A stretch of DNA of 64,000 bases from an uncultured bacterium (GTDB lineage: Bacteria; Bacteroidota; Rhodothermia; Rhodothermales; UBA10348). The notes beneath the pieces are model-generated. The model was not told the DNA's origin. It worked only from the letters and a program-made list of their open reading frames with translations, and did not search any database. Shown one piece after another: positions 4,904 through 54,642 of this stretch. The first letter of the stretch is position 1. Each line of letters begins with the position of its first letter. A program made the position numbers and the translations under genes. The stretch is taken from assembly GCA_943788505.1 (NCBI GenBank), contig CALSQR010000001.1, positions 1 to 64,000 on the forward strand. Reading direction: 5' to 3'.

Positions 4904-5302
4904 ATGAACGTTAGCGATCCCGTAGCAGATTACCTGACTCGTATCAGGAATGCGCAGAAATCAGCTCATCGGCATGTGGACATTCCGGCGTCAAAGCTGA
5001 AACGCGCAATGACCCAGATCCTACTCGACAAGGGATATGTACGTAGGTACATCAACGTCGATGATGGCAAGCAGGGTCTTATCCGCATCTACCTTAAGTA
5101 CCAGAAAGATGGTACTCCCGTCATTCGCTCAATGAAGCGTGCCTCCAAGCCGGGTCTCCGTTATTACACGGGCGCGGAAGGACTTCCCAGGGTACGTGGC
5201 GGACTTGGTGTCGCCATCATTTCGACGTCCCGCGGCGTCATGACGGACAAAGAAGCACGCGTCAACCACATTGGTGGCGAAGTGCTAGCCTACGTCTACT
5301 AG
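4904..5302 (+). CDS. rpsH: 30S ribosomal protein S8
   Basis: S8 binds helix 21 of 16S rRNA and in E. coli is the translational repressor of the spc operon. The 132-residue protein begins MNVSDPVADYLTRIRNAQKS and ends with GGLGVAIISTSRGVMTDKEA then GGEVLAYVY, all consensus. The 90-nt spacer upstream is long for this operon and can fold into a stem-loop ending 14 nt before the start codon, which makes it a candidate for S8 autoregulation (inference). Confidence 0.97.
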   Translation: MNVSDPVADYLTRIRNAQKSAHRHVDIPASKLKRAMTQILLDKGYVRRYINVDDGKQGLIRIYLKYQKDGTPVIRSMKRASKPGLRYYTGAEGLPRVRGGLGVAIISTSRGVMTDKEARVNHIGGEVLAYVY

Positions 5303-5348
5303 GACAGGCTACTTTCCTATACTTTTTCGAAACGCATCGAGAGATAAA

Positions 5349-5903
5349 ATGTCACGAGTGGGTAAAGCACCGATTTCGGTTTCCGACCAGATTAAGGTTG
5401 ATATCGGATCGAACAACCTGGTGACGGTTTCCGGACCGAAAGGGGAGTTATCCCTTCAGGTCGATCCGGACATCAGCCTGAAGATCGAAGAAGGAGAGCT
5501 CACGGTCTCCCGTCCTACCGATCAAAAGCGTCATCGCGCATTGCATGGCCTGTACCGTTCCCTTTTGGATAACATGGTTCAGGGCGTAGCAGAGGGTTAC
5601 AAGAAGGAACTCGAAGTAATCGGTGTGGGCTTCCGCGCCGCCGTTACTAACGGGGTTCTTGAATTGGCTCTTGGCTATTCGCATCCTATTTACTTCGTAC
5701 CGCCGGAAGGCATAAACGTCGAAGTTGATACGAAGCGAAGCAAAAATACCTTCATCATCATAGAAGGTGTTGACAAGCAGATGGTTGGTCAGGTTGCTGC
5801 TAAGATCCGGTCCCTTCGTCCGCCAGAGCCCTACAAAGGCAAAGGTGTTCGGTACTCTGACGAGTACGTACGTCGCAAGGCAGGTAAGACCGCAGCCCGG
5901 TAG
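5349..5903 (+). CDS. rplF: 50S ribosomal protein L6
   Basis: L6 lies near the sarcin-ricin loop and factor-binding centre. The 184-residue protein has two copies of the L6 fold: MSRVGKAPISVSDQIKVDI at the start, GVAEGYKKELEVIGVGFRA in the middle, and the C-terminal signature RPPEPYKGKGVRYSDEYVRRKAGKT. Length and order are canonical, between rpsH and rplR. Confidence 0.97.
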   Translation: MSRVGKAPISVSDQIKVDIGSNNLVTVSGPKGELSLQVDPDISLKIEEGELTVSRPTDQKRHRALHGLYRSLLDNMVQGVAEGYKKELEVIGVGFRAAVTNGVLELALGYSHPIYFVPPEGINVEVDTKRSKNTFIIIEGVDKQMVGQVAAKIRSLRPPEPYKGKGVRYSDEYVRRKAGKTAAR

Positions 5904-5920
5904 TATTAAACAATTGCATG

Positions 5921-5945
5921 ACCGGAGGGTCGGAAATCTTCCGGT
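5921..5945 (+). promoter_or_regulatory. Hairpin in the rplF-rplR spacer
   Basis: ACCGGA/TCCGGT, 6 bp with a 13-nt loop, ending 14 nt before the rplR start. Confidence 0.3.
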
Positions 5946-5959
5946 AAAAGAGAGAAAAG

Positions 5960-6310
5960 ATGGCAACAACGAAATTGGCACAGCGCATCCGCGTAAAACG
6001 CGGTATTCGCAAGAAGATCAACGGAACGGCCGCTCGGCCGCGTCTGAGCGTCTTTCGTTCGAACAAGAACATTTACGCTCAGCTTGTCGACGATCTGAGT
6101 GGCCACACTCTGGCCGCAGCAAGCAGCCAGCAGGACGGCATCTCAGGAGCAAATCCTGTAGAAGTCGCCAAATCTGTTGGCAAGGCGCTTGCTGAATCCG
6201 CCAAAGCAGGAGGGATCGAAACGGTCGTTTTTGACCGTAACGGTTACCAGTATCACGGTCGCGTCAAGGCCCTCGCCGAAGGTGCCCGTGAAGGCGGACT
6301 CTCATTCTGA
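5960..6310 (+). CDS. rplR: 50S ribosomal protein L18
   Basis: L18 binds 5S rRNA together with L5. The 116-residue protein has a basic N-terminus ([20 protein letters not shown]), the [18 protein letters not shown] strand region and the C-terminal [26 protein letters not shown] motif. A purine-rich AAGAGAGAAAAG precedes the ATG. The spacer between rplF and this gene holds a 6-bp ACCGGA/TCCGGT hairpin. Confidence 0.97.
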
Positions 6311-6341
6311 CCCGGATACCCGGACAATAACAACACGAATC

Positions 6342-6872
6342 ATGGCCAAAGGAAGTAATCGTAACTCGCGCGACCGTACAAGTGACTCCCAGATTGAATG
6401 GGTAGAGCGCCTCGTATCGGTAAAGCGTGTAGCTAAGGTGGTCAAGGGTGGTCGCCGTTTCTCATTCAATGCTGTAGTCGTCGTTGGCGACGGTAAAGGA
6501 TCCGTCGGAACGGGTCTTGGCAAAGCGAATGAAGTATCCAGCGCTATCGCTAAAGGCACAGAAGACGCCAAGAAGAATCTTTCCCGCGTGCCGATGCGCC
6601 GTGGAACGGTTCCTCACCCAGTAATCGGTAAGCAGGATGCTGGCCGGGTACTTCTCAAACCGGCATCGCACGGTACGGGAGTTATCGCTGGTGGTGGTGT
6701 TCGCGCCGTACTAGAATGCGCCGGATACACCGACATTCTTTCGAAGTCCCTTGGATCAAGCAACCCTCATAACCAGGTGGCTGCTACTATGGATGCCCTG
6801 CGCAACCTAGAGGATTCGATGGAAGTCGCTAAACGCCGCAATCTTCCGCTGAAGCGGGTTTTTGAAGGCTGA
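6342..6872 (+). CDS. rpsE: 30S ribosomal protein S5
   Basis: S5 is a decoding-accuracy protein at the mRNA entry site. Although the frame is open from inside rplR, the ATG at 6342 gives the expected 176-residue product [20 protein letters not shown]. The RNA-binding signature [20 protein letters not shown] and the C-terminal domain with [16 protein letters not shown] and [19 protein letters not shown] are intact. Confidence 0.97.
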
Positions 6873-6884
6873 ACCGTCCTGAAG

Positions 6885-6900
6885 CGGAGACTTGTCTCCG
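6885..6900 (+). promoter_or_regulatory. Compact hairpin in the rpsE-rpmD spacer
   Basis: CGGAGA-CTTG-TCTCCG, a perfect 6-bp stem with a tetraloop, 25 nt before the preferred rpmD start. Confidence 0.5.
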
Positions 6901-6925
6901 TCCACGAATGAACCGAACCACATCG

Positions 6926-7105
6926 ATGGCAAAGCTCAAAATTACCCAGATTAAAAGCGCTATTAGGCGCCCTGGCACTCAGAAGAAGACCGTAGCAGCG
7001 CTCGGACTTCGTCGGCTTAACCAGACGGTTGAACATGAGGACAGCCCGCAGATTCGCGGTATGCTGGCCAAAGTTCATCACCTGATCAAGGTCGAGAGCG
7101 CCTAA
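6926..7105 (+). CDS. rpmD: 50S ribosomal protein L30
   Basis: L30 is a small ferredoxin-like-fold protein of the large subunit. The start is ambiguous: an in-frame ATG at 6908 would add MNRTTS, but the ATG at 6926 gives MAKLKITQIKSAIRRPGTQK, the usual family start, and 59 residues, the usual length. A 6-bp hairpin with a 4-nt loop (CGGAGA/TCTCCG) at 6885-6900 would lie only 7 nt upstream of the first ATG, which also favours the second. The motif LGLRRLNQTVEHEDSPQIRG is diagnostic. Confidence 0.93.
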   Translation: MAKLKITQIKSAIRRPGTQKKTVAALGLRRLNQTVEHEDSPQIRGMLAKVHHLIKVESA

Positions 7106-7154
7106 ACTGACTGACTAGGCATATTTCTGGAAACAGGAACGTCTAGTCTTCAGT
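7106..7154 (+). promoter_or_regulatory. Long composite stem-loop between rpmD and rplO
   Basis: Starting directly after the rpmD stop codon: ACTGA/TCAGT (5 bp), internal loop, GACTAG/CTAGTC (6 bp), and an apical 6-bp stem TTTCTG/CAGGAA (one U-G) with a GAAA tetraloop. The arms enclose nearly the whole element. No T-tract follows. It ends 59 nt before rplO. Confidence 0.6.
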
Positions 7155-7213
7155 CTTTATCACATTCTACAGAACAAGCGAGTCCCGTTCGACGGGGCGA
7201 TATAGCAAACATC

Positions 7214-7672
7214 ATGGATCTGAGCAATCTTAAGCCCGCTAAAGGGTCTACAAAGTCGCGCAAGCGCATTGGTCGAGGTGAAGGCTCCGGACGTGGAGGT
7301 CACTCGGCAACGAGAGGAAATAACGGACAGAAGTCTCGTGCAGGCGCCAGCATTCCAGTCTGGTTTGAGGGTGGGCAGATGCCACTCCAGCGTCGTGTGC
7401 CGAAATTTGGTTTCAAGAATCCTTTCCGAAAAGAATATCACGCGGTTAACGTATCCCGTCTGGTTGAATTGGTCACATCGGGCGCGGTTGATGCTTCCGA
7501 AGAGATCACACCGGCTACGCTGCATAATGCTGGCCTGGTTGGTAAGAAAGAGCTTGTCAAAGTGCTCGGTGGTGGCGATATCGATACAGCCATCAAGGTC
7601 TCAGCCCACGCTTTTAGCAAAACAGCCCAAGAGAAGATCGAAAAGGCAGGTGGTACGGCTACCGTACTCTGA
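7214..7672 (+). CDS. rplO: 50S ribosomal protein L15
   Basis: L15 is a late-binding large-subunit protein with an extended N-terminal arm. The 152-residue protein starts MDLSNLKPAKGSTKSRKRIG, has the glycine-rich GRGEGSGRGGHSATRGNNGQ arm, then FEGGQMPLQRRVPKFGFKNP and a C-terminal globular domain. The 108-nt spacer upstream is the most structured of the cluster: a long stem-loop begins immediately after the rpmD stop codon. Confidence 0.97.
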   Translation: MDLSNLKPAKGSTKSRKRIGRGEGSGRGGHSATRGNNGQKSRAGASIPVWFEGGQMPLQRRVPKFGFKNPFRKEYHAVNVSRLVELVTSGAVDASEEITPATLHNAGLVGKKELVKVLGGGDIDTAIKVSAHAFSKTAQEKIEKAGGTATVL

Positions 7673-7736
7673 CCTCAAATCGTCTCGTAATCAACCGTTT
7701 CATCCCGGCCCCGAAAGGGAGTAATCGAATATCATC

Positions 7737-9050
7737 ATGGCTGGACTAACCGAAAGCATCCGCAACATCTGGAAGGTAGAAGAGCTGCGCCGCCGTATCC
7801 TGTATACGCTCGGACTGCTAATTATCTATCGTCTAGGAGCGTTCGTCACTCTGCCCGGTGTGGATGCAAGCATCCTCGCAGAAGTCAATGCGAATGCAGA
7901 TCCCAACAACCTTTTAGGGCTTCTCGACCTTTTTGTCGGTGGCGCCTTTAGCGCGGCTGGAATATTTGCACTTGGAATCATGCCGTATATCACGGCTTCC
8001 ATTGTGATCCAGTTGATGGGCGCGGTAGTGCCTTACTTCCAGAAGCTGCAGAGAGAAGGGGAAGAAGGACGTCGTAAGATTACCCAGCTGACACGGTATG
8101 GAACCATTATGGTGACGTCCTTGCAGAGTATTGGGTTTGCCATCAACCTGCAATACGGTGCAACCGCTCAAGCGATCGTCATTGGAGATACATTCTTTAT
8201 GGTTTCGACGGTGATTGTGCTGACATCCGGTACCATGTTTGTCATGTGGCTCGGTGAGCGAATTACTGAAAATGGCATTGGTAATGGTATTTCGCTGATC
8301 ATTATGATCGGTATTGTTGCCTTCTTGCCTACATCGCTGATAAACGAGCTTGAGCTTTCGAATAACATGTTCATCTTCCTGCTGGAGATTGGCATATTTA
8401 CCCTCATCACGGCAGGTGTTGTTCTGGTTACCCAAGGTACTCGTAGGATTCCGGTTCAGTACGCTAAGCGCGTAGTCGGTCGGAAAGTATATGGTGGTTC
8501 AACCCAGTACCTACCTATCAAGATTAATGCTGCAGGCGTCATGCCGATCATCTTCGCTCAGTCGATTATGTTCGTGCCCGCTACGTTTGCCACGCTCTTC
8601 CCAGAGTCTGCATTTATGCAGCAAATGGGAGTCTTCTTTACCGATATATCTTCGTTTGGCTATTCAGCCGTCTTCTTTACGATTTGTGTGTTCTTCACCT
8701 ACTTCTACACGGCCATCGCTGTGAACCCGAAGGAAATGGCAGACACAATGAAACGTCAAGGTGGGTTTGTCCCTGGTATTCGCCCAGGTAAGCAGACGAG
8801 CGAGTTTATCGATAATATTCTGACACGTATCACGCTTCCTGGATCCTTATTCCTCGGACTTGTAGCGATCTTCCCAGCCTTCGCTATTCAGTTTGGAGTC
8901 ACGTACGGATTTGCCCAGTTCTTTGGTGGAACGTCGCTGCTGATTCTTGTTGGCGTCACACTCGACACCTTGCAGCAAGTTGAAAGCCACCTGTTGATGC
9001 GTCACTACGATGGCTTCATGAAGACTGGCCGCGTACGCGGGCGTCGTTAA
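7737..9050 (+). CDS. secY: Protein translocase subunit SecY
   Basis: SecY is the ten-helix channel of the Sec translocon in the cytoplasmic membrane. The 437-residue protein has the N-terminal RRRILYTLGLLIIYRLGAF segment (TM1), the plug and TM2 region with GIMPYITASIVIQLMGAVVP, cytoplasmic loop RREGxxGRRKITQLTRYG, and the C-terminal QVESHLLMRHYDGFMKTGR. At least ten hydrophobic segments are visible. It is placed after rplO, as in nearly all bacteria, so translocon synthesis is linked to ribosome synthesis. Confidence 0.98.
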   Translation: MAGLTESIRNIWKVEELRRRILYTLGLLIIYRLGAFVTLPGVDASILAEVNANADPNNLLGLLDLFVGGAFSAAGIFALGIMPYITASIVIQLMGAVVPYFQKLQREGEEGRRKITQLTRYGTIMVTSLQSIGFAINLQYGATAQAIVIGDTFFMVSTVIVLTSGTMFVMWLGERITENGIGNGISLIIMIGIVAFLPTSLINELELSNNMFIFLLEIGIFTLITAGVVLVTQGTRRIPVQYAKRVVGRKVYGGSTQYLPIKINAAGVMPIIFAQSIMFVPATFATLFPESAFMQQMGVFFTDISSFGYSAVFFTICVFFTYFYTAIAVNPKEMADTMKRQGGFVPGIRPGKQTSEFIDNILTRITLPGSLFLGLVAIFPAFAIQFGVTYGFAQFFGGTSLLILVGVTLDTLQQVESHLLMRHYDGFMKTGRVRGRR

Positions 9051-9064
9051 TCCGAACTCCAAGA

Positions 9065-9880
9065 ATGGTCCACCTCAAAAGCGATAAGGAAATCGAACGC
9101 CTTCGGGCCTCGGCCGATTTGGTCGGGCGCACGTTGGGTGAGGTCGCAGCCTTAGTGCGTCCTGGGGTGAGTACCGCTGAATTGGATAAGGTAGCTGAAG
9201 AATTCATCCGAGATCACGGAGCTGAGCCAGCATTCAAAGGGTATCGAGTTGGAAGTTTGGTATTCCCTGGGACCTTGTGTACATCGGTTAACGACCAGGT
9301 TGTTCATGGCATTCCAGATAATAGACCTCTTGAAGAGGGAGATGTCCTCAGTGCCGATTGTGGCGTGTTACTGGACGGATTCTATGGAGATAGTGCCTAC
9401 ACGTTTGCCGTAGGTGACATATCAGACGAAGTAAGCGCATTGCTGAGTACGACCTACGAATCTCTGATGCTAGGCATCGCGCAGGCGACGACAGGTAAAC
9501 GGCTTGGCGACATTGGGTCCGCTATTCAGACCCATTGCGAAGGACGTGGCTATGGTGTCGTCAAGGATTTAGTTGGTCACGGCATTGGCCGCCAACTACA
9601 CGAAGACCCTCAGGTGCCCAACTTTGGGCGTACTGGAAGCGGCAGAAAATTAAAAACCGGATTAACGGTATGCGTTGAACCGATGATTAATCGGGGAACG
9701 GCATCAGTTAGGACGGAAGGGGATGGGTGGACCGTTAAGACAGCGGACTCGTTGCCTTCGGCCCATTATGAGCACATGATTGCGGTCCGACCTGGAGAAG
9801 CAGATGTGCTTACAACATTCCGATACATCGAGGAAGCCCTCGATGTCCTACCATACGAACTGACTACGAGTGTAGCTTAA
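9065..9880 (+). CDS. map: Methionine aminopeptidase, type I
   Basis: Removes the initiator methionine from nascent proteins after deformylation, using a dinuclear metal centre. The 271-residue protein has the type I layout, with metal ligands in [20 protein letters not shown] (two Asp), [18 protein letters not shown] (His), CVEPMIN (Glu) and YEHMIAV (final Glu). It directly follows secY with 14 nt between them; its stop codon overlaps the infA start by one base (TAATG). Adenylate kinase, which separates secY and map in many other phyla, is absent. Confidence 0.97.
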
Positions 9881-10098
9881 TGGCCAAGCAGAAGCCTATT
9901 GAACAGGATGGCGAAGTGATTGATGCGCTTCCTAATGCCCAATTTCGCGTGCGTTTAGAAAACGGACATGAAATTTTGGGACTCCTTTCCGGTAAGATGC
10001 GGATGTATTTCATCAAGATCCTGCCCGGAGACCGCGTTAAGGTGGAACTTTCACCTTACGATTTATCAAAAGGACGGATTGTTTACCGCTATAAGTAA
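9880..10098 (+). CDS. infA: Translation initiation factor IF-1
   Basis: IF-1 is an OB-fold protein that occupies the A-site during initiation. The 72-residue sequence contains [20 protein letters not shown], the [20 protein letters not shown] core and ends [15 protein letters not shown], all consensus. TAATG overlap with map indicates translational coupling. It is followed by a 106-nt spacer with a strong hairpin before rpmJ. Confidence 0.97.
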
Positions 10099-45788: not shown

Positions 45789-46355
45789 ATGTACAATAAA
45801 GCTACCTCGCTGGTTCATCATTTTCTCTCCGAACTGATCCTCGACGGAGATCATGTTGTTGATGCAACCTGCGGGAATGGATATGACACGATCGAACTAC
45901 TGAAATTGGTAGGAGCGCAGGGTAGAGTAGATGGTTTTGACATTCAAAAACAAGCTATTGAGACTACTAGGGAACGACTAAGTATTCAAGGCAAAGTCGA
46001 CAATGTCTTTCTCCACCATGCGTCCCATTCAACGATGAAGGACATACTTCCCGCTGGTAGCTCGTTGAAATCAGTTGTGTTTAATCTGGGCTATCTACCC
46101 GGCTCAGATAAATCAATAACAACTAATCCAGAGGATTCCTTATCTGCTCATAGTGCTGCCCTAGACTTGACTATGCCTGGAGGTGTGATATTCACTACCG
46201 TGTATACGGGCCACGAAGGTGGAAAGGCGGAGGCGGATCGACTTCTAGAATGGGCAAGAGCGCTCGATTCGAAACAATACTCGGCCGCGCGTCACCAATG
46301 GCTGAATCCTAGAAAGGATGCCCCATTTTTGCTCATTGTACAGCGTCGATCATAA
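45789..46355 (+). CDS. mnmM: tRNA 5-(aminomethyl)uridine methyltransferase MnmM (YtqB family)
   Basis: SAM-dependent methyltransferase of the YtqB/MnmM family, which completes mnm5U at the wobble position in organisms lacking the MnmC methylase. From the ATG at 45789 it has 188 residues. Landmarks are VVDATCGNGYDTIELLKLVG (SAM site), VDGFDIQKQAIETTRERL, the signature VVFNLGYLPGSDKSITTNPE, and VYTGHEGGKAEADRLLEWAR; the last part QWLNPRKDAPFLLIVQR is also typical. The upstream open frame overlaps aroB on the other strand and is not used. Confidence 0.88.
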   Translation: MYNKATSLVHHFLSELILDGDHVVDATCGNGYDTIELLKLVGAQGRVDGFDIQKQAIETTRERLSIQGKVDNVFLHHASHSTMKDILPAGSSLKSVVFNLGYLPGSDKSITTNPEDSLSAHSAALDLTMPGGVIFTTVYTGHEGGKAEADRLLEWARALDSKQYSAARHQWLNPRKDAPFLLIVQRRS

Positions 46356-47122
46356 TGTGTCTCATTCTTCTGTCCTGGCAACCCAAAGAGCCGCAACGAC
46401 TTGTGATCTTGGCCAATCGGGATGAGTTTTTTGATCGACCGACGCTGCAGGCAGATTTCTGGCATGATATGCCAGATATCCTCGCTGGTAGAGATAAAAA
46501 AGCGGGTGGAACGTGGCTTGGAGTAGACAAGAGAGGACGTTTTGCAGCCATTACCAATTACCGATCCCCATTGGATATGAACGCCGGGGGTACCTCACGA
46601 GGTAGCCTACCCGTAAAATTCCTTGGTTCCGAAGAAACAGCGATGAGCTATCTCGATCAGGTATCGAAGCAAAAGGCAGATTATGCAGGCTTCAATCTTC
46701 TGGTTTTCGATGGCAATGACTTGTGCTACTACTCCAATAGATCTGACAAGAACCCCGTCGCACTATCACCAGGTGTATATGGTCTGAGTAATTCTCTCTT
46801 GAATACCTCATGGCCGAAAGTTGATACTGGGCGAAGCGAACTACGCAACAGAATTGACACATCCGATGAGCCAAGCCCGGATTGGCTGGATATTATGGCT
46901 GATTCCTCTCAGGCAGCAGACAAAGAATTGCCAGATACCGGGGTGGGATATGACCTTGAAAAACGACTTTCTGCCCGATGCATTGTGATGGAGGGCTATG
47001 GGACCAGGAGTTCGACGTTCGTGTCAATAGGGCAAACTGAAAGCGCCCAGATTCAATTCGTAGAAAAAACCATCGTCCCGGCTGGCCTTAATCCTGACAC
47101 TGTTTCCTTCAGACTGGTGTAA
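46355..47122 (+). CDS. NRDE/TANGO2 family protein
   Basis: A 255-residue protein of the NRDE (Ser/Thr-rich, TANGO2) family, with an Ntn-like fold suggested for the family. It begins MCLILLSWQPKEP, keeping the conserved Cys2 that could be an N-terminal nucleophile after Met removal, then the family name motif LANRDEFFDRPT, AGRDKKAGGTWLGVDKRGRF and YGLSNSLLNTSWPKV. It overlaps mnmM by one base (TAATG) and overlaps the dipeptide epimerase 3' end by 14 bp tail to tail. Biochemical role unknown; heme trafficking has been proposed for homologues. Confidence 0.9.
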   Translation: MCLILLSWQPKEPQRLVILANRDEFFDRPTLQADFWHDMPDILAGRDKKAGGTWLGVDKRGRFAAITNYRSPLDMNAGGTSRGSLPVKFLGSEETAMSYLDQVSKQKADYAGFNLLVFDGNDLCYYSNRSDKNPVALSPGVYGLSNSLLNTSWPKVDTGRSELRNRIDTSDEPSPDWLDIMADSSQAADKELPDTGVGYDLEKRLSARCIVMEGYGTRSSTFVSIGQTESAQIQFVEKTIVPAGLNPDTVSFRLV

Positions 47123-48140
47123 CGCCGATCCCTGGCCGATCAGAAAGTGTAATAAGGCCTTTGTCAAAACTGAGTCCTGAAAACGGATCAGCTGCCAAGT
47201 GCATGGGCCCATCCAGATCCAGCCAGTCAGCGAGTGGACCCAAATGAGCTGCTGCGGTCATGGCAACGGAGCTCTCGATCATACATCCCAACATGACACC
47301 CATTTCCAGGTGTCGTGCTAGAGAGATCATCTCTCGGGCGGGCTGGATCCCTCCGCATTTGGCTAGCTTTATGTTTATGCCGTTTGCAGCTCCTGCCAAG
47401 GCCAAGATGTCGTCCGGTGTTTGAAGGCTTTCATCAGCTATGAGAGTAGCTGGGGCTCCTTTTAGTAGCCTGCGAAGCAAGTGCCATTCTTCCGGGTCCT
47501 CGGCAGGGATTGGTTGCTCTATAAATGCAAGGTCACAGTCAGCAAGGCGCTTGATCATGTCCACGGCTGTTTGAATAGGCCATTTTGCGTTAACGTCGAC
47601 GCAAAGCATTCCAGAATACTGGCAGCGGGTGTGACGCACTATCGCTTCGTCGAATGACACATCCCCGCATCCGATTTTGAGTTTGAGGAACGGAAATCCC
47701 TCCGCTTCACTAAGAAACCCATTCAGTTCTTCGAGAGATTCTGGAATGGGAAGAGCGTAGGAGGATACCGGCATTGACTGCGGATCGAGGCCAAACAAGA
47801 CATGCAGGGGGAATCCTAATCGCTTTCCCCACACATCGTGCAAAGCCATATCAACAGCAGCGCAAGCGGGAGGAGGTGTCTCGGGTAGTTTGGCTAAGAA
47901 AGCAGTAAGCGGAAAGGGACCGCTCGTCGGGATGTCTTCAAGGATAGGACGGATGCGTTCCATGTACTCCAGCACATCGTTGCGAGTGGTGGGGTAGTAT
48001 GGTGGCAAGGCTGCTTCACCGTATCCGTCATCGATGCGGACTATCACGTTGTCTCTGCGTGTACTCGCTCCATGCGCAATTCTAAACGTATGGCGCAGGA
48101 CAAGCGGTAAGTCCGAGGCAGAGAACCGTTCTTCTTTCAT
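47109..48140 (-). CDS. Dipeptide epimerase (L-Ala-D/L-Glu epimerase-like, enolase superfamily)
   Basis: Enolase-superfamily (MLE subgroup) enzyme. The 343-residue protein has the catalytic KxK in FLKLKIGCGD, metal ligands in LCVDVNAKW, FIEQPIPAED and LIADESL, the second catalytic Lys in INIKLAKCGGI, and the substrate-loop GCMIESS. The start at 48140 overlaps the upstream gene by 4 bp (ATGA). Its operon with Mpl makes L-Ala-D-Glu from murein tripeptide the most likely substrate, feeding L-Ala-L-Glu to peptidases (inference from context). Confidence 0.9.
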   Translation of the reverse strand: MKEERFSASDLPLVLRHTFRIAHGASTRRDNVIVRIDDGYGEAALPPYYPTTRNDVLEYMERIRPILEDIPTSGPFPLTAFLAKLPETPPPACAAVDMALHDVWGKRLGFPLHVLFGLDPQSMPVSSYALPIPESLEELNGFLSEAEGFPFLKLKIGCGDVSFDEAIVRHTRCQYSGMLCVDVNAKWPIQTAVDMIKRLADCDLAFIEQPIPAEDPEEWHLLRRLLKGAPATLIADESLQTPDDILALAGAANGINIKLAKCGGIQPAREMISLARHLEMGVMLGCMIESSVAMTAAAHLGPLADWLDLDGPMHLAADPFSGLSFDKGLITLSDRPGIGVTPV

Positions 48141-49177
48141 CGCACAGGAAATGTGATATCGGTCCAGCCCGTCATTCCTGAGTGATTCCACGCGCTAAGC
48201 TGACGAGTCAATTCATTCTCTAGAGCGCTGGAATCTGTTAGCGAATCGCAAGAAATGGGTGAGTGGTTGCAGAGTTGGTGGGGTTGGTCTAGGGAGACTA
48301 CAGGGCTTCCCGCATGGGCTGGTTGGCCATGCTCAGAGCGAGCAAATCTCCATCTTCGATCAGCAACTGCTCCAATCTGGACAACTTGAGCTGCTATTTC
48401 TGCTATTTCCGCTATTTCGGAAAAAACACCCATTTGCGCCGGATTCGAATCAGGCGAGCCCCCGTCCATTGAAAACAAGACCTCTTGAGGATGCACCCGA
48501 TGACCGAATGCCCGCTGATCGCACCCATTGACAATTATTGTTGCGCCCGCACTGCCGGCTTCTGCTGAAGGACGATTTTGACCACGAATGCTGAGGGCAA
48601 GGCATAAGGCACGAATTACGTCGGCATCCAAACCCTGTTCTCGCGTCCCTATTTGAATCACCGGATGAATGGCAGGGTGAAGAGAGAGCAGTTCTGGGAT
48701 GATTTCGACCTGGGAAAGGTTATCCGGATGAGAAAGATCTAAAAATGGCCCAGTTACTCGGTCTAAGCCCACATCCTGTGCAAGACGGGAAAGGGAGGTT
48801 GCCACCGACAGGATTTCAGTTGGAGCATGGCCTACAAAGAGGTTACCAGTCTGTCGGACATGAAGGTGTAAAGGGCAGGGCAGCGAGTTCCTTGCTGATA
48901 AGTTCAACGCTTCTGCCACATCCCATTGGAAAGAATCCAGAGCCAGACGCAGATTGTCGTACACTCGGGCAAACTGCGTCGCACTTCGACGGCTGGTCGA
49001 AGAGGCGAGGGAAACAGAAACACAAATCGAGCGAATCGGGACGGATGGACTGACCGGCGCTCGCCGCTCCATTATGCGCACCGCTTCCACTTCGACATCG
49101 GAAGCGGAGGCGCGCGTGCCGAGACGCTTGATTGCAGCCTCGACAATCAAATCCAAAGAATGAGTAGAGCTGGGCAT
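48137..49177 (-). CDS. Unrecognised protein between mpl and the dipeptide epimerase gene
   Basis: A 346-residue protein I cannot assign. It has no signal peptide or membrane segment and no P-loop, and Ser, Ala and His are abundant. By eye the middle (SRLAQDVGLDRVTGPFLDLS, IPELLSLHPAIHPVIQIGTR, then GATIIVNGCDQRAFG) weakly resembles the UPF0210/DUF711 family, but this is a tentative hand alignment. A short repeat SEIAEIAEIAAQ is present. It is a real gene because it overlaps the epimerase gene as ATGA and follows mpl after 110 nt on the same strand. A role in murein peptide recycling is inferred only from context. Confidence 0.65.
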   Translation of the reverse strand: MPSSTHSLDLIVEAAIKRLGTRASASDVEVEAVRIMERRAPVSPSVPIRSICVSVSLASSTSRRSATQFARVYDNLRLALDSFQWDVAEALNLSARNSLPCPLHLHVRQTGNLFVGHAPTEILSVATSLSRLAQDVGLDRVTGPFLDLSHPDNLSQVEIIPELLSLHPAIHPVIQIGTREQGLDADVIRALCLALSIRGQNRPSAEAGSAGATIIVNGCDQRAFGHRVHPQEVLFSMDGGSPDSNPAQMGVFSEIAEIAEIAAQVVQIGAVADRRWRFARSEHGQPAHAGSPVVSLDQPHQLCNHSPISCDSLTDSSALENELTRQLSAWNHSGMTGWTDITFPVR

Positions 49178-49287: not shown

Positions 49288-50760
49288 CTATACGTGCAGA
49301 GAGGTAAGTAGCTTGTCGTGAAGTCCGCCAAAGCCGCCATTACTCATTACCAAGGCTACGTCACCTGGACGCAATTCGGTGAGAAGAAATGGTAATAGAT
49401 TATCTGCCCCTTCAGCCGCCACTGCTGGAATACCGGTCGAGATAATGTGCCTAATAACGGCATCAACATCAATGAAGTCCTCCTTTCGATCATTATGACG
49501 GAAGGGAGGACGACTCAGGAATACGGCACCAGCATGCTCGAAGGCAGCAGAATAGCCGTTCTCAAAAATTTTTCGACGACTCGAATTGGAACGGGGCTCG
49601 AATACTGCGACAACACGGCGGTCTGGCCACCGTTCTGCAGCCGCTTCAACGGTTGCCTTTACAGCCGTCGGGTGGTGCGCAAAGTCATCTACGACAATCA
49701 CTCCGGACACCTCACCTCTAATTTGCTGCCTCCTCTGAATTCCGGCGAAGGTGCCGAAACCAGTGATAATATCCGCTATGGTAAGACCTTCGTCCAGCGC
49801 GATGGTAGCCACTGCGAGGGCATTCAACAGGTTATGTCGTCCGCTGAGAGGCAACCATATCCGGCCTTTCATTTCGCCCTTTACAACCAGGTCGAAGCGC
49901 TGTCCATCCGATCCGGTATCAATGCGAACGGCCGTGACATCAACGTTTCGTCGCTCCAAGCCATATGTCATTACTCGACTTGATGCATCAACAGAAAGAC
50001 GATTGACCTCTGATAAGTCTCCACACAAGACGAGAAGGCCATCACTTGGAAGCAATTTTGCAAACTCACTGAATGCTTCTCGGTAGTCGTCCATTGATGC
50101 ATATATATCTGCATGGTCAAACTCAACCGATGTAATTATGGCACTAGTAGGGCGATAGTGGAGGAATTTAGGTCGTTTGTCAAAATAGGAGGTGTCGTAC
50201 TCGTCGCCTTCTATGATAAAATGCTGGCCTATTCCGACCGAATAACTGACATCTCCATTGTTCATGACTCCGCCAACGAGGAACCCCGGCTCTTTGCCTG
50301 CAGAGCGGAAAAGATGGGCCATCAAGGCGGAGGTAGTAGTTTTGCCATGGGTTCCAGCAACTACCAATGAGCGGCGATCACGAATAAAGAAATGTGATAC
50401 CGCCTCTGGAAGCGACTGCTGTGCCCAACCATGTTCGCGAACATGAGCAGCTTCTGGATGAGTAGGGGTGCAGGCGTTCCCTACAATCACTAAATCAGGT
50501 TGTGGCTGGAGGTTTGTCTGGCTGAAGCCCTCCGAGACTGGGATCTTCATGGCTTCGAGTCGAAGACTCATCGGGGGCCATGTGGCGGCGTCGGACCCGC
50601 GCACATTATATCCAGCTTCGTGAAATAAGCCGGCCAAAGACCCCATGCCGGTTCCACAGATTCCGATTAGGTAGACATCATTAATCTCGTTCGCCGCTGG
50701 AACCGGAGAGCGATCAAAAACTCGCAAATGAGCGTCCGGGAAGTCTTCCAGTTTGCGCAT
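49288..50760 (-). CDS. mpl: UDP-N-acetylmuramate:L-Ala-gamma-D-Glu-meso-DAP ligase
   Basis: Mur-ligase family enzyme that attaches recycled murein tripeptide to UDP-MurNAc. The 490-residue protein has YLIGICGTGMGSLAGLFHEA at the N-terminus (UDP site), the ATP loop VAGTHGKTTTSALMAHLF, the Mpl-specific VGGVMNNGDVSYSVGIGQHF and IEGDEYDTSYFDKRPKFLHY, and the third domain DDFAHHPTAVKATVEAAAER. The EGDEYD motif distinguishes Mpl from MurC. It heads the murein-recycling operon and lies 57 nt after the RND gene. Confidence 0.95.
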   Translation of the reverse strand: MRKLEDFPDAHLRVFDRSPVPAANEINDVYLIGICGTGMGSLAGLFHEAGYNVRGSDAATWPPMSLRLEAMKIPVSEGFSQTNLQPQPDLVIVGNACTPTHPEAAHVREHGWAQQSLPEAVSHFFIRDRRSLVVAGTHGKTTTSALMAHLFRSAGKEPGFLVGGVMNNGDVSYSVGIGQHFIIEGDEYDTSYFDKRPKFLHYRPTSAIITSVEFDHADIYASMDDYREAFSEFAKLLPSDGLLVLCGDLSEVNRLSVDASSRVMTYGLERRNVDVTAVRIDTGSDGQRFDLVVKGEMKGRIWLPLSGRHNLLNALAVATIALDEGLTIADIITGFGTFAGIQRRQQIRGEVSGVIVVDDFAHHPTAVKATVEAAAERWPDRRVVAVFEPRSNSSRRKIFENGYSAAFEHAGAVFLSRPPFRHNDRKEDFIDVDAVIRHIISTGIPAVAAEGADNLLPFLLTELRPGDVALVMSNGGFGGLHDKLLTSLHV

Positions 50761-50817: not shown

Positions 50818-53800
50818 TCAATCACTAGCAGCACGCCCGGGGGCAAGGTGGGATTTCACTTCGGAAGGGTCTCGGAAGGCATACTGCATCCGAATAGCAA
50901 GCGAATCAAACACAGAATACATAACTGGTACAATAACGAGCGTAAGGAACGTTGCGAAGGTAAGACCAGATATAATAGCGGTACCCATCGGACCCCAGAA
51001 CTGAGTATTCTCAGAGCCAAACTGGAAGTTCGGATCTAGATTGACCAAAAGCCCTACAAAATCAATGTTAATTCCAAAGGTTAGCGGGATCAGGCCAAGA
51101 ACTGTCGTCATGGCGGTAAGCAACACCGGTCGCATCCTAGTGGCACCCGCTTCAATAATAGCTTTCTGTTTTTCTACCCCTCGATCGCGCAACTGCATCG
51201 TGTAATCAATGAGCACGATGTTGTTGTTAACGACAATCCCTGCCAAAGATATCACACCGATAAAGGTCATGAGACCGAATGGCGTCCGGGTTAGAATCAG
51301 TCCTAGCAGAACACCAATTAGGCTGAAACCGACAGCAACCATGATGATGAATGGGGAAGAGATATGGTTGAATTGGGCAATCATGATCATAAAGATCAGC
51401 GATACCCCAACCAGAAGGACGATGGAAAGAAAACCGAATGATTCGGCTTGCTCTTCATTCTCACCTGTGTAAGAAACGGTATATCCCGCTGGGATTTCCG
51501 CTACGTAAGGCTCTAGCAGTTCTTGCACTTGCGCTAAGATAGCAGCGCTGTTGTATCCAGGTGCGCCCTGTCCGGTTACTACTGCTACTCGTTGTAGATC
51601 TAGCCGGGTTACGCTTCCAAGTCCACCAGATAACTCCAGATCTGCTACAGCGGTCAACGGTATCTGAGTTCCTTCTTCCAGAATGGTCAAATTGCGAAGG
51701 CTCTCAAGGGAGGCCCGATCATCCTCTCTAAGGCGTACGATGATGTCGTATTCATCCTCGCCGTCCCGAAATTTACCTGCCTCCACTCCATTAATAGCCG
51801 ACCGCACGGTTGATGCAATCTTGCGGGTGGAGATGTCAAAACGAGCCGCACGCTCCCTATCAATTCGAACTTGTAGTTCAGGGCGCCCTTGATTGAGATT
51901 GTCCTGAATATCAACAAGACCGGGTATTTCTCCTGTATCAGAGGCTCGCGTAAGAGAGGACTTGAGGTCGGACGCTATCCGGCTAATTACAGCGAACTCT
52001 TTCCCGCTTATTTCAATATTAACGGGCGCGCCAGTCGGTGGTCCGTTACTGTCCTGGTCAATCTTGATTTCCGTACCAGGAATACCGCGAAGCTCGGTTC
52101 GAATGCGTTCAAGCGTCTCAAAGCTGTCCTCGGCGCGATCTGCATAGTCTACCAGGTTCATGGTGATGCGTGAACGCTCTGGACTCGTAGCGCCTCCACC
52201 AAACTGACCATCGGCGCTGACACCAACATTCACGATCATGTTTTTTACATTTTCGCGCGCTTCATCACTGCCTTGTAATAGTGATGAGAGTCGGCGTCTT
52301 GCTTCGTCCGCAATCTCATTACTCGCGCCAAGGTTCATCCCGAGGGGACCCTTGACCATCACCATTATCTGACGAGGAGATGAGTTTGGAAAGAACTCAA
52401 CGCCTGTTGGTGCGGCAAGAAACATGAAAATAATCAGTATGAGCGAACCAACCGACACGTTGAGGAGCTGGGCCCTGTTATCGGTTAGGATCAGTTGATC
52501 ACGTTTCACAAACAGCTTACCGATAATACCCCCAGCGACAATCAAAAGAGGGAAGACAGCCAGTTCCGTGGCGGTTGCTATGTCGACATCTTTCTCAAGA
52601 AGTGCCATCAAACCAAGAAAGGAAAGCGATGTGACCGCGAAAACAATACCGATACGGATGCTCTTTCCCTTGCCCAGAAGCGTGGCTTCCAAGGTGTGAA
52701 AAAGAATACCTAGCGTACCTACGACCATCAACACACCCCCAGGTATCAAGAAGACCATTCCAGCAGTCTCTCCCATCCCACTGGAAACAAGAAGGCTTAG
52801 AATGCTCAGCACAAATCCAGTCGTAAAGCTTCCTAGTGCAGCGGCATTACGGAGCAAGGCTCGTTTAGCAGAGTAATCCCGATCAAGCATTCGACCAAGG
52901 AATGAGCGATACCGGTCAATCAGTCGTGGCAGCCCAGTACGTACAAAATTATCCCCAATCGGCTTAAATATTTTGCGATGCAGAAAACTGACGAGGGGGA
53001 TGGCAACAGCTAATACTACGAAGGTCTTCCAGTTGGCAATAGCTAACGTTAGGCCGACAAGCGCGATTACAACGTAGCCTACATTTTTCGCTGTGCGGGT
53101 CTTCTCAGGTACACGCTCACCTTCCAAGCGGACGAAAATCCCAGTGATTACAGGGTTGATGATGATAGCTACAAACAGGGAACAGGTAAGAGTGATAATC
53201 AACGTGAGTGGCATCCAGCTCATGAACTCACCGATGATCCCCGGCCAGAACAACATTGGGAAGAACACGGCGACCGTAGTGGCGGTCGAGGCAATCACGG
53301 CTCCGGCAACTTCAGACGTGCCCTGTTTGGCGGCTTCAAAACGAGAATACCCTTCCTCTCGGTACCGATAGATATTCTCCACAATCACGATCGCGTTGTC
53401 CACCAACATCCCAAGCGCGATAATCATCGAGAAGAGGATGATGAAGTTGAGCGTATATCCAGCTGCCTGAAAAACGATGAACGAAATGAACATCGAAAGT
53501 GGGATAGCGATGCCAACAAGCGTTGCGTTTCGTGCCCCGAGGAAAAAGAGCAATACAGCGATTACGAAGATCAGACCGGAGATGATATTGTTCTCGAGGT
53601 CTGTAATCAGGTCCTCTACGAAAACCGATTGATCACCAGTAATGATGACTTGCGTCCCAGATGGAAAGGCAAACTGATCCAGTCTTGCCCCAACTTCCCC
53701 GACTGTTTCTAGGATGTTGTCGCCCGAGCGCTTCTTGACATTTAGGCTGATTACCTGATTAAAACCCTGCCGATCGTCTGGAAGGTCAAACAATTCGTCA

Positions 53801-54642
53801 TTTGCATCGGTCTCCTGGAAAATCGCGAGCCGGGAATAGGACACTCGCTCAGCGAATCCGAAGTCTACATCGGCTACATCCCGTACATATACAGGGACGC
53901 CTCCGGGGCTTTTAATTACGAGATTGGAAAGCTCATCAGGGTCTTCGATTTCACCATCCACACGTACGAGGTAGTTCATCTCATCCACGTCGATAGACCC
54001 ACCCGGCACATTCGTGTTCTCATCAAATACTGCGTTGACGAGGTCCGTGAACGTAAGATTGTATCCTTTCAGCTTGACTAGGTCCACGTTGATCTGGATC
54101 TCACGGTCGAGCCCGCCAATGACATCTACTGCCAATACGCTGGGAATAGCCTCCAGCTCATCTTCCAATTCTTCGGCGACTTTTTTAAGTCTCGTAAGAG
54201 GGTAGGGGGCCGCCAAATTGATCGTTAAGACAGGGAATTCAGAGAAGTCTATCTCTGAGACCATGGGCTCTTCCACATCCGAAGGCAGGTCGGCTTTTGC
54301 TATATCAACCTTGTCTCGAACTTTGGCAAAGGCTTCGTCGATTGAAACGTCTGGTTCAAACTCTACGACGATACTCGAAACGCCTTCTGTAGAGGTCGAG
54401 CGGATGGCTTTGATACCATTTATTCCCTGGATCTCGCTCTCAATTTGCTGAGTAATCAACGACTCAACGTCGTCGGGTGCCGCGCCAGGGTAGATCGTTG
54501 TCACAACGATATTGGGCACCTCAATAGAAGGGTTAGCTTCTTTCGGGATCGTGATATAACTGTAAATGCCGCCAAGGGTCAGAACGACCGTCAGAACCAG
54601 AATAGAGGTTCTGTACTTGATGGCGGTATCCGTAATCTTCAT
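50818..54642 (-). CDS. RND family efflux permease with an enlarged central membrane region
   Basis: Proton-driven efflux pump of the AcrB type. The 1,274-residue protein has the N-terminal helix (YRTSILVLTVVLTLGGIYSY), porter domains, TM4 with the proton-relay GMLVDNAIVIVENIYRY, and the C-terminal TM block (FGLMTFIGVISLAGIVVNNN, MTTVLGLIPLTFG). RND pumps are normally ~1,040 residues; here about 210 extra residues with some five or six hydrophobic segments (approximately residues 515-725) separate TM6 from the TM7 segment that runs into GVEFFPNSSPRQ. Last gene of a tetR-tolC-mfp-RND operon. Substrate unknown. Confidence 0.92.
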   Translation of the reverse strand: MKITDTAIKYRTSILVLTVVLTLGGIYSYITIPKEANPSIEVPNIVVTTIYPGAAPDDVESLITQQIESEIQGINGIKAIRSTSTEGVSSIVVEFEPDVSIDEAFAKVRDKVDIAKADLPSDVEEPMVSEIDFSEFPVLTINLAAPYPLTRLKKVAEELEDELEAIPSVLAVDVIGGLDREIQINVDLVKLKGYNLTFTDLVNAVFDENTNVPGGSIDVDEMNYLVRVDGEIEDPDELSNLVIKSPGGVPVYVRDVADVDFGFAERVSYSRLAIFQETDANDELFDLPDDRQGFNQVISLNVKKRSGDNILETVGEVGARLDQFAFPSGTQVIITGDQSVFVEDLITDLENNIISGLIFVIAVLLFFLGARNATLVGIAIPLSMFISFIVFQAAGYTLNFIILFSMIIALGMLVDNAIVIVENIYRYREEGYSRFEAAKQGTSEVAGAVIASTATTVAVFFPMLFWPGIIGEFMSWMPLTLIITLTCSLFVAIIINPVITGIFVRLEGERVPEKTRTAKNVGYVVIALVGLTLAIANWKTFVVLAVAIPLVSFLHRKIFKPIGDNFVRTGLPRLIDRYRSFLGRMLDRDYSAKRALLRNAAALGSFTTGFVLSILSLLVSSGMGETAGMVFLIPGGVLMVVGTLGILFHTLEATLLGKGKSIRIGIVFAVTSLSFLGLMALLEKDVDIATATELAVFPLLIVAGGIIGKLFVKRDQLILTDNRAQLLNVSVGSLILIIFMFLAAPTGVEFFPNSSPRQIMVMVKGPLGMNLGASNEIADEARRRLSSLLQGSDEARENVKNMIVNVGVSADGQFGGGATSPERSRITMNLVDYADRAEDSFETLERIRTELRGIPGTEIKIDQDSNGPPTGAPVNIEISGKEFAVISRIASDLKSSLTRASDTGEIPGLVDIQDNLNQGRPELQVRIDRERAARFDISTRKIASTVRSAINGVEAGKFRDGEDEYDIIVRLREDDRASLESLRNLTILEEGTQIPLTAVADLELSGGLGSVTRLDLQRVAVVTGQGAPGYNSAAILAQVQELLEPYVAEIPAGYTVSYTGENEEQAESFGFLSIVLLVGVSLIFMIMIAQFNHISSPFIIMVAVGFSLIGVLLGLILTRTPFGLMTFIGVISLAGIVVNNNIVLIDYTMQLRDRGVEKQKAIIEAGATRMRPVLLTAMTTVLGLIPLTFGINIDFVGLLVNLDPNFQFGSENTQFWGPMGTAIISGLTFATFLTLVIVPVMYSVFDSLAIRMQYAFRDPSEVKSHLAPGRAASD

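Follow-up and report, generated by a model that had tools for sequence, protein, structure and literature searches.

The protein encoded directly upstream of the dipeptide-epimerase-like gene in the window, by which we mean the whole 64,000-nucleotide stretch of Rhodothermales DNA analyzed here, is a strongly diverged descendant of the UPF0210/DUF711 family; sequence, predicted fold, and gene order agree on this descent, and the branches of the trees are long. A first-pass annotation, made from the DNA letters alone, had found no clear family for it, a view that the profile and model comparisons below replace. We propose that the gene descended from a fumC-htrA-ACT-UPF0210 locus, gained a hairpin by fusion, re-made its ligand pocket, and took on a role in dipeptide metabolism, an explanation to which, taken whole, we give a probability of about one half.

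Results

A conserved gene between the mpl-like and epimerase-like genes

The ORF is a real gene. As in the first-pass annotation, it encodes 346 residues and overlaps the epimerase gene by 4 bp (Table 1): the in-frame ATG of the epimerase at 48140 and the TGA of the ORF share the letters ATGA. The mpl-like gene lies 110 bp upstream in the same direction. A frameshift or a wrong choice of frame was ruled out, as the C-terminal half is colinear with the orthologs and there are no internal stops. Across the 27 genomes (G000-G026) of f1, the family to which the window belongs, an ORF of 262-458 codons lies directly upstream of the epimerase in 25 of the 25 genomes with an epimerase at that place, a count that leaves out G018, which has no epimerase match, and G019, for which the place was not fetched. 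This recurrence exceeds chance. The 4-bp overlap is found in 10 of these 25 genomes and is missing from the other 15. An open frame of ~300 to 350 codons is retained in 14/14 short-clade genomes, and the short-form alignment used below comprises 14 orthologs, the window protein included. A scan of genome contigs returned nine relatives, all of them MAGs.

Table 1. Coordinates of the genes and protein segments discussed, in window positions
Feature	Position	Strand	Remarks
TANGO2 family gene	46355..47122	+	convergent; belongs to conserved block
Dipeptide-epimerase-like enolase-superfamily gene	47109..48140	-	overlaps stop of the 48137-49177 ORF by 4 bp
Derived UPF0210/DUF711 protein gene (hairpin plus reduced barrel)	48137..49177	-	346 codons, ATG start
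Second half of protein	48140..48460	-	partly low confidence (residues 265-302 pLDDT <50); far shorter than normal UPF0210
First half of barrel, strands 1-5, residues ~50-239	48461..49030	-	DUF711-matching part, holds most conserved residues
Loop after strand 5, residues 217-229	48491..48529	-	conserved NGCDRRAFGHRVH in short clade
N-terminal helical hairpin, residues ~4-40	49058..49168	-	homologous to N-terminal module of ACT-domain protein
mpl-like Mur ligase gene	49288..50760	-	best match TIGR01081
RND (AcrB-type) transporter gene	50818..54642	-	first gene of conserved block

The order mpl-ORF-epimerase, whose conservation the first-pass annotation had named as a check, holds within this one family, as part of a recurring block: RND transporter, mpl, in some loci htrA, the ORF, epimerase, TANGO2/rRNA methylase (opposite strand), aroB, and TamB. 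An htrA gene separates mpl from the ORF in 13 of 26 f1 loci; it is absent from 10, including the window, reduced to a remnant of 123 codons in G021, and unreadable in 2. The remnant (L034, 7479-7850, + strand), between mpl and the UPF0210-like gene, keeps the C-terminal part only and looks like an htrA that is being lost. At L087 (G018; 5169-6398, + strand) mpl, the UPF0210-like gene, and TANGO2 stand in this order; the epimerase is missing, and that genome, in which the ORF is present, has no epimerase match. The epimerase gene is broken up between two frames at L031 (G011; 9049-10037, + strand) and L043 (G007; 8952-9963, + strand), representing a pseudogene or an assembly error. At L083 (G022; 8831-10018, - strand), the gene between mpl and htrA encodes a membrane dipeptidase (M19) and is thus a further gene for peptide degradation within the block. 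An alpha/beta-hydrolase fused to an OsmC domain (L091 of G073; 6018-7253, + strand) recurs beside TANGO2 in several f1 and f2 genomes.

The "murein recycling" labels of the two neighbors are to be taken as best sequence matches below curated cut-offs. The first-pass naming of Mpl stood insofar as TIGR01081 (mpl) is the top match of the Mur ligase, with 370.0 bits (cut-off 388.7) against 306.1 for MurC (cut-off 335.1). The epimerase-like product exceeds the Pfam cut-off for the enolase C-terminal domain; its best NCBIfam match was DgcA (162.6 bits, cut-off 400), and the L-Ala-D/L-Glu epimerase model PRK15129 scored 104.1 bits (cut-off 343). As the N-acetyl-D-Glu racemase DgcA outscores the L-Ala-D/L-Glu epimerase to which the gene had been assigned, the substrate of this enzyme is unsettled.

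Relationship to UPF0210/DUF711

The sole match in a Pfam scan of the 346-aa protein was DUF711 (PF05167; E 1.5e-5, residues 47-196), and a weak hand alignment to this family in the first-pass annotation has proved right. The score was 24.5 bits against a cut-off of 25, and 25.2 bits with the in-frame neighbors added; with the NCBIfam UPF0210 model NF003700 it was 21.2 bits against a cut-off of 440. These scores, slightly under the Pfam cut-off and far under that of NCBIfam, count against the proposed explanation. A single-sequence PDB search with the protein returned nothing at E<=1, and the best match of a 14-ortholog profile in the PDB was 2HA9, at a weak E of 0.043. This entry, SP0239 of Streptococcus pneumoniae, is the only UPF0210 structure.

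Structure prediction, suggested earlier as a check, gave the fold of 2HA9. AlphaFold2 modeled the window protein with pLDDT 73.9 and pTM 0.71 and the L099 ortholog with pLDDT 83.2 and pTM 0.79; Foldseek matched the two models to 2HA9 with E values of 1.1e-9 and 1.3e-11, respectively. VIA placed 2HA9 above all other entries for both, with Z 19.1 over 269 aligned residues at 3.7 Å for the window model and Z 22.4 over 289 at 3.8 Å for the ortholog model, and the next-best matches were ribonucleotide reductases (RNRs; Z 10.7 and 12.9, respectively). Aldolases, Kemp eliminases, ornithine decarboxylase, and others were weighed as structural kin; they matched far more weakly than 2HA9, which was taken to reflect shared barrel features. 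No strong match to an unrelated enzyme family emerged, and within f1 the neighborhood is conserved.

With UPF0210 (PF05167; NF003700; 2HA9), the window protein shares the fold by model comparison, a sequence match that covers the barrel's first half, and descent from an htrA-ACT-UPF0210 cluster. Unlike normal members, which have ~460 residues, it has a shortened second half and an extra N-terminal hairpin, and it is without the ACT gene that adjoins UPF0210 at normal Rhodothermales loci. The likeness to the RNR large subunit and PFL-type glycyl-radical enzymes lies in the ten-stranded β/α-barrel; no sequence match to these enzymes is reported, and the window protein is about half their length. 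According to the literature, ECOD holds DUF711 in one barrel group with RNR and PFL, no candidate radical glycine was found in SP0239, and the function of SP0239 is unknown (PMC4390871). Our literature search turned up no study of what UPF0210 does or of the mpl-ORF-epimerase gene order. Two f1 genomes carry a second DUF711 paralog of ~412-425 residues (E ~1e-82) near S15 or M28 peptidase genes (L089 of G013, 6720-7958, + strand; L088 of G012, 6514-7791, - strand); that of G013 has, by eye, a twin-arginine-like N-terminal signal and is perhaps an exported DUF711.

The UPF0210 locus in the Rhodothermales

In other Rhodothermales families, a normal UPF0210 gene (460 residues, PF05167 at >500 bits) follows an ACT-domain gene at 7 of the 7 normal loci read. 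The full order fumC-htrA-ACT-UPF0210 occurs in families f6 and f15, and likewise in f9 with one extra gene before ACT; f12 has ACT-UPF0210 in both genomes read and htrA close by in one. The order in f11 is htrA-ACT-UPF0210-epimerase (2/2 genomes): here UPF0210 adjoins the epimerase without mpl, and the UPF0210-epimerase neighborhood is therefore independent of mpl. In f2, a shortened UPF0210 gene lies behind fumC-htrA in 4/4 genomes carrying it; no epimerase is nearby, and in 3 of these 4 no epimerase match was found genome-wide. None of the f1 loci read, the window's included, has an ACT-domain gene; of the ACT protein, only the hairpin remains there. The window gene is an older resident of the UPF0210 locus, and the word "inserted" in the first-pass annotation does not describe it.

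We searched 47 PF05167-bearing genomes for linkage (52 with PF05167 matches minus five f1 genomes covered separately). An epimerase match was found in 31, and the two genes lay close together only in the Rhodothermales genomes G036, where they are adjacent, and G031, where they are ~5 kb apart. The UPF0210-epimerase link is order-specific in this sample. Normal UPF0210 proteins were also found in archaea of the control set, namely Methanocaldococcus jannaschii, Sulfolobus acidocaldarius, and Methanosarcina acetivorans. These archaea are not known to have murein, which argues that the ancestral role of UPF0210 was not murein recycling.

Hairpin fusion

The first ~40 residues of the window protein have no counterpart in the aligned normal UPF0210 proteins. 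When the derived proteins were made into a profile, it gave, in addition to the barrel, a second match ~400-1000 bp upstream of normal UPF0210 genes, at the N terminus of the ACT protein. An HMM of the hairpin, made from f1 rows only, matched 9/9 ACT proteins (E 6e-10 to 3.7e-3) within a target set of 568 sequences that included 180 shuffles, the best shuffle reaching 0.22. Since the hairpin is in all nine ACT proteins and absent from the normal UPF0210 proteins aligned, we infer that it passed from ACT to UPF0210. Across 394 genomes of the phylum, the hairpin profile had 11 matches, 9 of them in Rhodothermales; only these were convincing, the two outside the order being borderline (E 0.002 and 0.009). 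A Pfam scan of the hairpin alone gave SpoVIF as a candidate family (best E 0.002, 4 of 18 rows), which was taken as chance.

The window protein thus consists of a hairpin from the ACT protein and a UPF0210 barrel, with the ACT domain deleted. The Rhodothermales ACT-domain protein upstream of UPF0210 (NF001220-type plus the N-terminal hairpin) has the hairpin in common with it and differs in having the ACT domain; in the window protein, the hairpin is joined to the barrel instead.

In f2, G051 and G041 are unfused and G073 and G027 fused; in genus g7 (G012, G018) the barrel is present and the hairpin missing. A fused group of 25 rows, which includes the two g7 rows without hairpin and one g3 row with an unsure start, was disfavored as one clade (p-AU 0.010; f1 plus f5, p 0.041) in a tree that left out six divergent rows (g4, g9, two g10, and two paralogs). 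With the hairpin columns removed, f1 did not form one clade; in an earlier tree, with the g4, g9, and two g10 rows out, it did (93/85). Fusion may have happened more than once, and the long branches limit what these trees can say.

Rapid but constrained evolution

Compared with its genus mates, the window had a dN of 0.84-0.93 in the ORF, whereas the epimerase reached 0.28-0.33 and mpl 0.18-0.20; dS was saturated. The ORF changes at three to five times the rate of its neighbors. For the pair G006/G001, the dN of the ORF was 0.23, again with dS saturated. The ORF is under purifying selection, its dN lying well below saturated dS in the pairs tested. Amino acid identity of the ORF is 29-33% within one genus, compared with 65-74% between the f11 UPF0210 and normal ones of different Rhodothermales families. 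The normal set comprised 15 rows representing 13 different proteins (12 from Rhodothermales plus SP0239; two entered twice with unequal lengths) and had 154 invariant columns. The short form retains 6 of these in 11 or more of its 14 rows, 5 of 55 in the first half and 1 of 99 in the second. With the UPF0210-invariant residues nearly all lost, no UPF0210 chemistry can be assumed for the short form.

The short clade has conserved residues of its own. In zones at the C-terminal ends of strands 1-5, defined from the model's strand list and not from coordinates, lie 16 of 28 conserved barrel residues versus 39 of 167 others (Fisher p=5e-4), and 2 of the 28 lie at strand N-terminal ends. The C-terminal zones are where an active site would be expected. 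Directly after strand 5 comes the near-invariant loop N-G-C-D-R-R-A-F-G-H-R-V-H; in NGCDRRAFGHRVH, the Cys and the His are present in 13/14 rows and the Asn in 11/14. At the position of the loop Cys, none of the aligned normal UPF0210 proteins has a cysteine. The loop of window residues 217-229 sits, after strand 5, at what we take to be the topological place of the RNR/PFL catalytic-cysteine loop. The window protein has a Ser where 12/14 short-form rows keep a Cys. Glycyl-radical enzymes carry a radical glycine motif near the C terminus, and the short form stops before the C-terminal region of normal UPF0210.

In the orthologs of g4 and g10, most of the barrel is gone, which looks like decay, and the g10 ORFs have shrunk to 262-277 codons. 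In G009, G014, G015, and G022 the barrel is barely or not recognizable, and the genes were identified by place, hairpin, and weak matches.

Discussion

Our explanation begins with the UPF0210/DUF711 gene of a Rhodothermales fumC-htrA-ACT-UPF0210 locus as the ancestor. The N-terminal helical hairpin of the ACT partner was joined to the barrel and the ACT domain removed; the gene came to lie next to the dipeptide epimerase and mpl genes, with fumC and ACT lost and, in the window's genus, htrA lost as well. The second half of the barrel shrank and the UPF0210-invariant residues were replaced. The product would be an RNR/PFL-type barrel of the cytosol in which a polar, arginine-rich pocket has been re-made where strands 1-5 have their C-terminal ends. 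Candidate pocket residues, in window numbering, are S54, S56, S62, R63, R64, R108, D147, T178, C219, D220, and R222, with H229 nearby, and the ligand may be a small, probably anionic amino acid or dipeptide. The product, presumably made with the epimerase by coupled translation, could change or sense an intermediate of dipeptide metabolism. The hairpin would be the docking element retained from the former ACT regulator; were it now built in, the ligand-sensing ACT domain would no longer be needed. The presence of the gene without epimerase in G018, together with the lack of UPF0210-epimerase adjacency outside the order in our sample, weakens the functional tie to the epimerase. The protein may be a catalyst still, or a pseudoenzyme that binds or regulates; on balance, we lean toward a ligand binder or a catalyst with new chemistry rather than a relic.

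A tentative alternative, in line with the regulator that the first-pass annotation also suggested, is that the protein is no enzyme but regulates or scaffolds the epimerase or Mpl, its barrel binding a ligand and its hairpin making a putative partner contact. It would suit the origin of the hairpin in a protein with a ligand-sensing ACT domain, the presumed co-translation with the epimerase, the contrast between a fast-evolving ORF and slow neighbors, and the retention of the hairpin despite barrel loss in G009, G015, and G022; yet g7 keeps the barrel with the hairpin missing, and the gene persists without an epimerase in G018 and, in f2, away from both epimerase and mpl. We regard as unlikely a decaying relic that lost its function with the ACT partner and the invariant residues, its ORF surviving mainly by feeding ribosomes into the epimerase gene. 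The near-complete loss of UPF0210-invariant residues, the speed of evolution, the overlapped epimerase start in many genomes, the visible decay of the companion htrA in G021, the short g10 frames, and the absence of a recognizable barrel in g4 and g10 all fit decay. A relic would, however, hardly be expected to keep its frame open in all 14 short-clade genomes, to hold dN far below saturated dS, to cluster its own conserved residues at strand ends, to retain a compact predicted fold (pLDDT 83 in the ortholog), or to persist in G018 with no epimerase downstream.

The first-pass annotation had raised a peptidase or amidase step, and its most specific form, the missing γ-D-Glu-meso-DAP peptidase/amidase step of tripeptide breakdown, is the least probable of the readings considered. 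The DAP-releasing step has no assigned gene in the window's genome, the ORF lies between mpl and the epimerase, and one Cys and one His are conserved in 13 of 14 short-form rows. A search of that genome for NlpC/P60 and M14 showed no NlpC/P60 domain, and its M14 matches occur only in open frames of 578-925 codons, none the size of MpaA, which has ~240 aa; large M14 proteins are present in 27/27 genomes, which makes the M14 search uninformative on MpaA. Against a peptidase stand the lack of any peptidase family match at E<=1 in the Pfam scan of the 346-aa protein, the RNR/PFL-type barrel fold of a non-peptidase family, the occurrence of the ancestral UPF0210 family in archaea as well, and the absence of an epimerase near the f2 and G018 members. 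The strand-5 loop Cys at the RNR/PFL catalytic-cysteine place, combined with the absence of NlpC/P60 and of MpaA-sized M14, leads to a further reading, in which the UPF0210 barrel has become a novel thiol enzyme that breaks down murein peptides and supplies the DAP-releasing step with the ACT hairpin as a lid; we consider this very improbable.

UPF0210/DUF711 is an uncharacterized family of bacteria and archaea, and the window gene is a fused, reduced form of it. The Rhodothermales offer a natural series of such forms, from normal ACT-linked UPF0210 through shortened forms to hairpin fusions without the ACT domain, some of them beside a dipeptide epimerase. With this series one can test whether the hairpin docks the ACT regulator to the barrel, whether UPF0210 binds an amino acid or a dipeptide as its ligand, and whether one barrel can be repurposed while losing much of itself; the series could also help to reveal the function of UPF0210.
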